A stretch of 64,000 nucleotides of DNA from Thermodesulfovibrio thiophilus DSM 17215 (GTDB taxonomy: Bacteria > Nitrospirota > Thermodesulfovibrionia > Thermodesulfovibrionales > Thermodesulfovibrionaceae), in the NCBI RefSeq assembly GCF_000423865.1, contig NZ_AUIU01000012.1, positions 62,001-126,000 of the forward strand, read 5' to 3'. Positions 46,674-49,151 of the stretch are shown piece after piece. Position 1 is the first letter of the stretch. Each line of letters opens with the position of its first letter. The notes beneath the pieces are model-generated. The model made no database searches and was not told the origin of the DNA. It saw only the letters and a program-made list of their open reading frames with translations. The translations under genes and the position numbers were made by a program.

Positions 46674-47146
46674 GTCTCACACATTTTGATGAAAAAGGAC
46701 AGGCAAGAATGGTTGATATTACAGGCAAACCTATAACTGAAAGAGTGGCGGTTATCGAAGGATTTGTAAAAATGAAACCTGAAACTCTTGAGCTGATTTT
46801 AAATAAAGAAATTGCAAAAGGTGATGTTTTTCAGGTTGCTCGTCTAGCAGGAATTATGGCTGCAAAGATGACTCCTCATTTAATCCCCTTGTGCCATCCT
46901 TTGCCTATCACATCTGTTGAGATTGATTTTGAGCCAGATATAAAAAACTCACAGGTAAAAATAAAAACCACTGTAAAGACATCAGGACAAACTGGAGTTG
47001 AAATGGAAGGCATGGTTGCAACTTCTATAGCAGCTTTAACAGTTTATGATATGTGCAAAGCTGTTGATAAAGAAATGATTATTGGTGAGATAAAACTTAT
47101 TTATAAATCTGGCGGTAAAAGTGGTGAGTTTATAAGAAAGACCTAA
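46670..47146 (+). CDS. moaC: Cyclic pyranopterin monophosphate synthase
   Basis: This 158-residue enzyme, together with MoaA, makes cyclic pyranopterin monophosphate, the first molybdopterin intermediate. It has LIPLCHPLPITSVEIDF, TGVEMEGMVATSIAALTVYD and MCKAVDKEM, all MoaC signatures. Molybdopterin is needed by the oxidoreductase at the window start. AGGAAAG precedes the ATG, which overlaps the SDR stop. Its stop codon and that of the convergent hypothetical gene share bases (CTAA). Confidence 0.96.
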   Translation: MSLTHFDEKGQARMVDITGKPITERVAVIEGFVKMKPETLELILNKEIAKGDVFQVARLAGIMAAKMTPHLIPLCHPLPITSVEIDFEPDIKNSQVKIKTTVKTSGQTGVEMEGMVATSIAALTVYDMCKAVDKEMIIGEIKLIYKSGGKSGEFIRKT

Positions 47147-47646
47147 TCGTGATCTGACCCCCCGCCACCATAAAGTTGTTTTTCAACTCGTGGGTTAAGA
47201 TTTGTAAAAATAGTTATTATACTGTCTTTCTTTTTGTAAACCGTCTCTACAGGTTCTAAAATTCCAAATACCCATGGAAAATATACTGGTTTCAGCTCAT
47301 AACCAAATGCATTTTCTTCATCTTTTATTGTTGAACATTTAATAGTACTTACAAAAGACGGATTTTTTAAAATTTCATTCACTATTTTCAAAGCTTCCTT
47401 ATCATTTAAATTTTTAAATATTCTATATTTAAACTCTGGAGCATAGGGGCTGATAATAACTTTATCGTCAACTTTATCAAGAACTATAAATGTCTCTGGA
47501 TCATTAATGAAAGCATTGGCATAAATAATTAAATCAAAATTGCCCTTTATATTTTGATCATTACATTGTTCCAGTGTAAGGGAATGTAGGGTTAAGGGTA
47601 AAATCAAAACTACTAAAACAGCTGCTATTATTCCAATTAATTTCAT
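47143..47646 (-). CDS. Secreted or membrane-anchored protein of unknown function
   Basis: This 167-residue protein has an N-terminal signal peptide or anchor (about 1-22) and two cysteines after it (LEQCND and IKCSTIKDE) that could form a disulfide. It has a mixed alpha/beta mature part and ends in a Gly/Asp/His tail (YGGGGSDHD). I do not recognise a family. No ribosome site is present; a TATAAT ends six bases before the ATG. Only 21 bp separate its start codon from that of the divergent ABC-transporter gene, so the two may be jointly regulated. Its stop overlaps the moaC stop. Confidence 0.6.
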   Translation of the reverse strand: MKLIGIIAAVLVVLILPLTLHSLTLEQCNDQNIKGNFDLIIYANAFINDPETFIVLDKVDDKVIISPYAPEFKYRIFKNLNDKEALKIVNEILKNPSFVSTIKCSTIKDEENAFGYELKPVYFPWVFGILEPVETVYKKKDSIITIFTNLNPRVEKQLYGGGGSDHD

Positions 47647-47652
47647 ACATTA

Positions 47653-47660
47653 ATTATACT
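47653..47660. promoter_or_regulatory. Overlapping divergent -10 boxes in a 21-bp intergenic space
   Basis: The plus strand has TATACT (47655-47660) ending 7 bases before the ABC-ATPase ATG. The minus strand has TATAAT (47658-47653) ending 6 bases before the ATG of the hypothetical gene. The two boxes share four bases, so RNA polymerase cannot occupy both at once. Each -35 region would lie inside the neighbouring coding sequence. Confidence 0.5.
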
Positions 47661-47667
47661 AAAATTT

Positions 47668-48390
47668 ATGGCAGCAGTACAAGGAAAAAATTTAGTCAAA
47701 TATTACAAAAAATTTAAAGCTTTAAATTCTGTAACTTTTGAAATAAAAGAAGGTGAATGCTTTGGTTTTCTTGGTCCCAATGGAGCAGGAAAAACAACCC
47801 TTATGGGAATGATTTATGGATTTATAACGCCTTCAGAAGGAGAAATAGAAATCTTTAATCAAAAATTTAATAAACATACTTTATCAGAAATAAAAAAAAG
47901 AATAGGCGTCATCCCGCAGGACAACAACCTCGATCCTGATCTAAACGTTCTAGAAAATCTCATAGTCTATGCAAGATATTTTGACATTAACAGAAAAAAA
48001 GCAACCCAAAAAGCCATAGAGCTTCTTGAATTTGTAAAACTGGATGATTGGATCAGCATAAATGTAAGAAAACTTTCAGGAGGAATGCAGAGAAAGCTCA
48101 TCTTTGCTAGAGGACTTATAAATGACCCTGATCTTATAATTCTTGATGAGCCTACAACAGGCCTTGACCCACGCAGCAGAAGACAGATATGGGAAAAAAT
48201 TGAGGTGCTTAAACATTCTGGTAAAACTCTCATTCTTACAACACATTATATGGAAGAAGCTGAAAAACTATGCGATAGAATCGCAATGATGGATAAAGGT
48301 AAAATTTTAGTTATTGACACTCCTGAGAATTTATCTATTAAATTTGGTGGAAATCTTGAACATGTTTATTTAAATATGACAGAGGGATAG
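47668..48390 (+). CDS. ABC-2-type transporter ATP-binding protein (DrrA/NodI class)
   Basis: This 240-residue ATPase has Walker A (GPNGAGKTT), the Q-loop (GVIPQDNNLDPDL), signature LSGGMQRKL, Walker B plus D-loop (LIILDEPTTGLDPRS) and the H-loop (LTTHYMEEAEKLCDR). It is the motor of a two-gene exporter with the permease 2 nt downstream. NodIJ, DrrAB and YadGH-type exporters share this layout; the cargo (lipid, drug or polysaccharide) is unknown. It has no Shine-Dalgarno and a predicted leaderless promoter. Confidence 0.92.
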   Translation: MAAVQGKNLVKYYKKFKALNSVTFEIKEGECFGFLGPNGAGKTTLMGMIYGFITPSEGEIEIFNQKFNKHTLSEIKKRIGVIPQDNNLDPDLNVLENLIVYARYFDINRKKATQKAIELLEFVKLDDWISINVRKLSGGMQRKLIFARGLINDPDLIILDEPTTGLDPRSRRQIWEKIEVLKHSGKTLILTTHYMEEAEKLCDRIAMMDKGKILVIDTPENLSIKFGGNLEHVYLNMTEG

Positions 48391-48392
48391 AA

Positions 48393-49151
48393 ATGAACTT
48401 TAAAAGAGCCATTAGAGTATGGCAGAGAAATGCAACAGTTTATAAAAAACTATATCGTTCAAGTCTGACACTTAATTTTTTCGAACCAATGTTTTATCTG
48501 CTCGCACTTGGTTATGGGCTTGGAGGATTCATAAGAGAAATCAATGGCATGTCATATATTGATTTCATTGCTCCTGGTATTGTTATGTCATCAGGCATGT
48601 TTGCTGCATGCTATGAATGTACCTATGGAACATATGTAAGAATGTTTTATCAGAAAACTTTTGATGCAATTTTAGCAACACCGATAAATTTCAATGAACT
48701 TGTTCTTGGTGAGTTGCTATGGGGAGCAACAAAGAGCTTGATTTATGGAACAATTATAGTTTTTGTAATATCTTTTTTCGGAGTTGTTCAGTCTTTTTAT
48801 ATTGCCTTTATTTTACCGATAATTGCAATCTGCGGATTAATATTTGCAAGCCTGTCCTTGATTGCAACAGCTATAGTTCCAGGAATTGATTCCTTTAACT
48901 ACTTTTACACTCTTATTCTAACTCCTCTGTTTTTATTTTCAGGAATATTTTTTCCACTTGATGGAATGCCTGAGATTGTAGTGAAAATCTCAAATATTAA
49001 TCCGTTACTGCATCTTGTAAACATTTCAAGGGCATTCTGCTATGGACAAGTTTCACACATTCTTATTTATGATCTTGCAATAATTTTATTGTACGGGATT
49101 ATTTTCGTTCCTTTACCTTTTATTCTGTTAAAAAAACGTTATGTTTTATAA
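48393..49151 (+). CDS. ABC-2-type transporter permease (DrrB/NodJ class)
   Basis: This 252-residue inner-membrane protein has six predicted helices and the ABC-2 permease pattern: a long amphipathic N-terminus, YIDFIAPGIVMSSGMFAA, then TYVRMFYQKTFDAILATPIN. LFLFSGIFFPLDGMPE follows in the last third, with NPLLHLVNISRA after it. It forms a homodimer with two copies of the ATPase encoded 2 nt upstream. GAGGGA precedes the ATG. No substrate can be assigned. Confidence 0.91.
   Translation: MNFKRAIRVWQRNATVYKKLYRSSLTLNFFEPMFYLLALGYGLGGFIREINGMSYIDFIAPGIVMSSGMFAACYECTYGTYVRMFYQKTFDAILATPINFNELVLGELLWGATKSLIYGTIIVFVISFFGVVQSFYIAFILPIIAICGLIFASLSLIATAIVPGIDSFNYFYTLILTPLFLFSGIFFPLDGMPEIVVKISNINPLLHLVNISRAFCYGQVSHILIYDLAIILLYGIIFVPLPFILLKKRYVL

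Follow-up and report, generated by a model that had tools for sequence, protein, structure and literature searches.

The 21 bp at positions 47647-47667 of the window analyzed here, a 64,000-nucleotide stretch of one contig of Thermodesulfovibrio thiophilus DSM 17215, probably form a minimal bidirectional sigma-70-type promoter that yields two leaderless transcripts. RNA polymerase would engage a near-symmetric -10 core, ATTATACT, in either orientation, with one orientation chosen per binding event. Read leftward, the core would serve as TATAAT and the RNA would start at or beside the ATG at 47646; read rightward, it would serve as TATACT, with the RNA starting at or beside the ATG at 47668. 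Neither mRNA would have a leader, and each would be translated without the help of a Shine-Dalgarno (SD) sequence, so that the same 21 bp would provide the two promoters as well as the contexts of the two translation starts. The genes would probably be expressed independently at ordinary strength, with no switch between them. We infer transcription of both strands, the exact transcription start sites (TSSs), and leaderless translation from the sequence; the case for bidirectional use draws on an invariant 11-mer set against variable fourfold-degenerate sites, tight spacing, the lack of SD motifs on either side, paralogues that keep the leftward -10, a relocated ABC gene that keeps TATACT, and two further divergent pairs of the same design found genus-wide.

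Layout of the gap and the genes beside it

Inspection of the sequence places the ATG of a secreted-protein gene at 47646 on the minus strand and that of an ABC exporter ATPase gene at 47668 on the plus strand, exactly the 21-bp separation that the initial annotation had given. The features are as follows.

47143-47646, minus strand: secreted protein of 167 aa, family not assigned, signal-peptide-like N-terminus; homologues in 43 of 61 genomes of the genus and order
47631-47636, plus strand: rightward -35 position, TTCCAA (3/6 match, spacer 18), inside the secreted-protein gene; not conserved
47647-47667, no strand assigned: predicted shared intergenic bidirectional promoter, 21 bp, sequence ACATTAATTATACTAAAATTT
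47653-47663, no strand assigned: near-palindromic core 11-mer ATTATACTAAA
47658-47653, minus strand: -10 hexamer TATAAT of the secreted-protein gene, 6 nt from its ATG; predicted TSS about 47646
47655-47660, plus strand: -10 hexamer TATACT of the ABC gene, 7 nt from its ATG; predicted TSS about 47667-47668
47668-48390, plus strand: ABC-2 exporter ATPase, 240 aa (PF00005)
47677-47682, minus strand: leftward -35 position, TTGTAC (3/6 match, spacer 18), inside the ABC gene; not conserved
48393-49151, plus strand: ABC-2 permease (PF01061), starting 2 bp after the ATPase

The two hexamers have 47655-47658 in common, and the four-base overlap described initially is therefore exact. The -35 regions had been placed inside the opposite genes; the positions do fall there, but they hold no real -35 hexamer (best match 3/6), and none is kept in relatives. 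A promoter scan requiring 9 of 12 matches lists no site at 47647-47667. The window has a GC content of 0.33, in a genome of 1.87 Mb, and the octamer ATTATACT occurs in it nine times against 3.8 expected, a count reached in 0 of 100 shuffles; a further copy lies at 47216-47223, within the secreted-protein gene.

Taken by itself, this layout is little better than chance would give, which counts against the bidirectional reading: when the same 21 bases were shuffled 200,000 times, 5.0% of the results matched or bettered both -10s at 5-8 nt from each start, and 216 of the 63,979 21-mers in the window (0.34%) carry two equally good -10s at 5-8 nt. Because the gap is A+T-rich and about one shuffle in twenty does equally well, a single genome is weak evidence, and it is conservation across the genus that sets the layout apart from chance.

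The ABC-2 exporter assignment clears the curated Pfam cut-offs comfortably (PF00005, 126 bits against 25; PF01061, 70.3 against 26.9), and the permease is probably co-transcribed with the ATPase. Two subfamily assignments were rejected, since scores fell below the curated NCBIfam cut-offs: DrrA (TIGR01188, 257.9 against 312.45) and NodJ (TIGR01291, 193.5 against 206.65). The neighborhood comprises an SDR gene, moaC, the ATPase and permease genes, a tRNA-Leu gene, and what we take to be a purD-type gene. moaC (+) converges on the secreted-protein gene (-), and their stop codons share a 4-bp overlap at 47143-47146; the identical overlap is seen in several relatives (for example, L015, L016, L017, L018, and L020).

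Neither NCBIfam nor Pfam has a family that the secreted protein matches above cut-off, and a PDB profile search returned a single chance-level match (E 0.19). Its AlphaFold model (mean pLDDT 82) has no Foldseek match at E <= 0.001; a second look at the model gave matches all at Z <= 4.5, with CheC/FliY-type domains leading, a resemblance of the predicted fold at most. The gene is present in four copies in its own genome (the other copies being L010, L011, and L012, and one copy broken by two stops) and in one, rarely two, in other genomes of the genus. A mobile-element origin was considered for this multi-copy gene; its unusual 3' tail occurs once within 864 kb of the same genome.

Conservation and start signals across the genus

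Sixteen genomes of the genus, including that of T. thiophilus itself, were searched for the secreted-protein gene at E <= 0.001. It is present in 14; the two misses are genomes that are 56% and 63% complete. The comparison takes the best locus per genome (n = 14), leaving out a second copy in G003 and treating the three paralogues of T. thiophilus separately; a scan of named genomes gave six loci, every one duplicating a locus of the set.

Looked for in relatives, as the initial annotation had proposed, conservation of the 21 bp is found in the core: ATTATACTAAA stands directly upstream of the secreted-protein gene, unchanged, in 13 of the 14 loci, and the 4-bp overlap of opposite-strand -10s is invariant with it. 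A reading frame starts rightward in 12 of the 13 core-bearing loci. Nine are ABC genes, among them that of G008, which is divided between two contigs that have sequence in common at their ends; two are truncated ABC genes (L017 and L018), and one is unrelated (L020). The gap, computed from spacers, is 20-22 bp in all 12 loci with a right-hand gene and exactly 21 bp in nine. Set against this, fourfold-degenerate sites at invariant residues of eight ABC genes (the comparison omits the split gene of G008 and the separate gene of G014) are invariant in 0 of 40 cases, with a mean pairwise identity of 0.39. By this comparison neutral sites are saturated and the 11-mer is frozen. The shared divergent promoter with overlapping -10s that was first proposed thus appears well supported by conservation in the genus.

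What is conserved is confined to this core and its spacing. No -35 hexamer is common to the genus loci in either direction, the best matches being 2-5 of 6 and varying by genome, and a search for a conserved extended -10 found none. The C that breaks the palindrome is invariant, with ATTATACT in 13/13 core-bearing loci and the symmetric ATTATAAT in none.

The distances to the start codons are equally constrained. On the left, TATAAT ends 6 nt short of the start codon at 11 of 13 loci (5 nt and 7 nt at one each); on the right, all 12 loci have TATACT ending 6-8 nt from the start. SD motifs are missing ahead of the start in all 13 left and 12 right cases. A sigma-70 -10 at such a distance places the TSS at or beside the start codon. 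Since both -10s end 5-8 nt from the start codons and SD motifs are lacking, both mRNAs are predicted to be leaderless, an aspect that the initial annotation missed. The pattern agrees with that of leaderless genes preceded by TANNNT about 12 bp upstream of the start, as described in passages of PMC3160421: here TANNNT about 11-14 bp upstream, with no SD, is found on the left in 13/13 core loci and on the right in 12/12.

Judged from rough tallies based on crude longest-ORF starts, the T. thiophilus genome is otherwise largely SD-led: among 682 called genes, 291 have an SD only, 100 have TANNNT only (at -14 to -11), two have both, and 289 have neither. Divergent starts with TANNNT and no SD number 31 of 84 in a 464-kb subset. 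The gene miaA serves as a one-way leaderless control: of its 14 located starts (one further row was not locatable), 11 have TATAAT 5-8 nt upstream, in variable surroundings; on this comparison it shows that the genus uses such starts. The titles of search results gave no literature on leaderless starts in Thermodesulfovibrio. Among 16 homologue loci inspected at the level of the order, four from other genera (L026, L028, L029, and L031) carry TATTAT, TATAAT, or TAAAAT 6 nt before a plausible ATG, with no SD; others do not show this pattern.

Natural experiments and alternative readings

Several genomes have lost, moved, or replaced one partner. All three paralogues of the left gene in T. thiophilus have TATAAT or TATTAT exactly 6 nt before the ATG; in the two closest (on C12, and the broken copy on C16), the plus-strand TATACT is lost. 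The C12 paralogue carries a remnant of the ABC 5' end. That copy was duplicated together with the predicted shared promoter and this remnant. In G014, about 1 Mb separates the ABC gene from the left gene. The ABC gene retains ATTATACT, its TATACT standing 7 nt ahead of a GTG start; the left gene there no longer has the core and, on our reading, carries GGAG about 9 nt before an in-frame ATG, although the ORF tool prefers an upstream TTG to that ATG. G005 (L020) has a different gene on the plus side, starting 8 nt from TATACT. In G012 (L016), the ABC gene is absent and miaA converges on the locus, yet the whole 11-mer is kept; conservation there cannot come from two-way use unless the loss is recent, which counts against the bidirectional reading. 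In all, four relatives retain the 11-mer with an ABC gene that is truncated, missing, or replaced.

The persistence of the core in G012 is what would be expected if it drove only the secreted-protein gene, with the ABC genes transcribed from elsewhere and TATACT a by-product of -10 symmetry, and TATAAT is indeed the better (consensus) hexamer. Such one-way use is nevertheless unlikely. TATACT stands at its narrow distance from every right-hand start, the relocated ABC gene of G014 has the same hexamer, and the ABC gene has neither an SD nor another start signal ahead of it. The AAA beyond TATAAT is also invariant, and where the ABC gene is lacking, as in the two closest paralogues, TATACT has decayed and the leftward -10 persists. 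An invariant, near-palindromic stretch of 11 bp could also bind a regulator of both genes, its resemblance to a -10 being incidental; this we regard as very improbable, given that the 11-mer fits two -10 hexamers whose distances to the start codons are fixed, and that other micro-gaps conserve different cores that are also readable as -10s.

The initial annotation went on to envision a mutual-exclusion switch, in which polymerase bound one way blocks the other and the two genes toggle, their expression anticorrelated. The underlying premise is sound on geometry, in that overlapping -10s would preclude simultaneous binding and admit one polymerase at a time, and in E. coli strong activation of one direction lowered the opposite RNA (passages of PMC12825309). 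At basal activity, though, the same source reports no competition at five of five E. coli bidirectional promoters, which fire too weakly to compete. The present locus has no conserved -35 and hence no sign of a strong promoter, and none of the adjoining genes is a regulator (a distant one is conceivable). The separation of the two genes in G014, each with its own start signal, and the fate of the ABC gene in four relatives also speak against toggling, as does a divergent pair of Mycobacterium tuberculosis with two leaderless mRNAs, which are induced together (passages of PMC3898074). The switch therefore seems improbable, although it may be conceivable if some activator drives one side. With neither a -35 nor an adjacent regulator, independent low-level firing of the bidirectional promoter is the better prediction.

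Similar pairs and relation to known promoters

The layout is not confined to this locus. Gene calling over 864 kb (46%) of the T. thiophilus genome gave 76 divergent pairs. In five of them the longest-ORF starts are 1-30 bp apart, and four pairs allow a dual-leaderless arrangement with a gap of 15-21 bp. In one (L088/L089, G000:C9:220377-220391), with genes we presume to be a DUF gene and a nagA-like gene, the gap ATGNTATGATAAAAN is exactly 15 bp in 15/15 genomes that have the gene (it is absent from 1/16), with 13 of 15 bases invariant. In another (L088, G000:C9, about 204484-204503), presumably of a response-regulator gene and dtd, the gap is 19-21 bp in 12 of 13 genomes and 27 bp in one, with a conserved core that is TATGATATATTAACATAA-like and TGATATATTAACATAA-like over the genus; three of 16 genomes have no dtd match, and the left gene is recognized only by similarity of its first codons. 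An SNase/aroK divergent pair is looser and less regular over the genus, and for one more micro-gap pair (20 bp, on contig 10) the left gene turned up in only 1 of 16 genus genomes. In 400-kb samples, dual-leaderless options occur at 22 and 36 bp in G012 and only at 35 and 43 bp in G026, an outgroup of the same order. We put at about even the chance that Thermodesulfovibrio has recurrent dual-leaderless bidirectional promoters, with gaps of 15-22 bp, one shared -10 core, no -35 or ribosome-binding site, and near letter-for-letter conservation in at least three unrelated pairs, and that at the present locus the invariant C sets a fixed output ratio rather than a switch.

Should the reading hold, this would be about the smallest unit driving two genes, 21 bp containing two promoters and two translation starts. 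Its strict conservation would make bidirectional promoters, known hitherto mainly from TSS maps, visible to comparative genomics, and the genomes in which a partner is lost, replaced, or moved offer natural experiments on what maintains each half. The pattern also points to widespread leaderless starts in Thermodesulfovibrio.

Both ingredients are already known. A near-symmetric -10 used in either orientation is established for E. coli and other bacteria (passages of PMC12825309); passages of PMC10268837 likewise treat bacterial bidirectional promoters with one -10 engaged either way and define the class by divergent TSSs 7-25 bp apart. The Introduction of PMC12825309 states that such promoters take one polymerase at a time, and the same paper describes competition as arising only once one direction is substantially strengthened. 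The present locus resembles these Warman-Grainger bidirectional promoters, as portrayed in those passages, in its shared -10 region read on both strands, in lacking a strong -35, as most of them do, and in its TSS distance of about 21-22 bp as predicted from the -10 positions. Within the class that distance counts against the bidirectional reading, as spacings of 10, 18, and 23 bp are described as common in E. coli (PMC12825309, in part). The locus differs in that start codons coincide with predicted TSSs, so that both mRNAs are predicted to be leaderless, and in its genus-invariant core; the Warman-Grainger passages drawn on here (PMC12825309 and PMC10268837) do not mention leaderless mRNAs.

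From the other side, the locus resembles TANNNT leaderless genes (passages of PMC3160421 and PMC12340547) in having a -10 that ends 5-8 nt before the start codon with no SD; those passages, unlike the present pair, describe such genes singly. In text searches of the portions available, "divergent" and "bidirectional" were absent from PMC12340547 and PMC3160421, and "Nitrospira" and "Thermodesulfovibrio" were absent from PMC3160421. The M. tuberculosis pair prpD (Rv1130)/Rv1129c is alike in being made up of divergent neighbors with two leaderless mRNAs (predicted ones here); its genes are induced together, not exclusively, and the likeness, drawn from passages of PMC3898074, takes in neither its TSS distance nor any shared -10. 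Bidirectional promoters and leaderless genes are thus each familiar, and M. tuberculosis has at least one divergent dual-leaderless pair (PMC3898074, in part). A shared -10 core giving two leaderless mRNAs was not described in the portions of the literature searched, and such a description may exist. The locus is best viewed as a putative Warman-Grainger-type bidirectional promoter, a variant with two leaderless transcripts.
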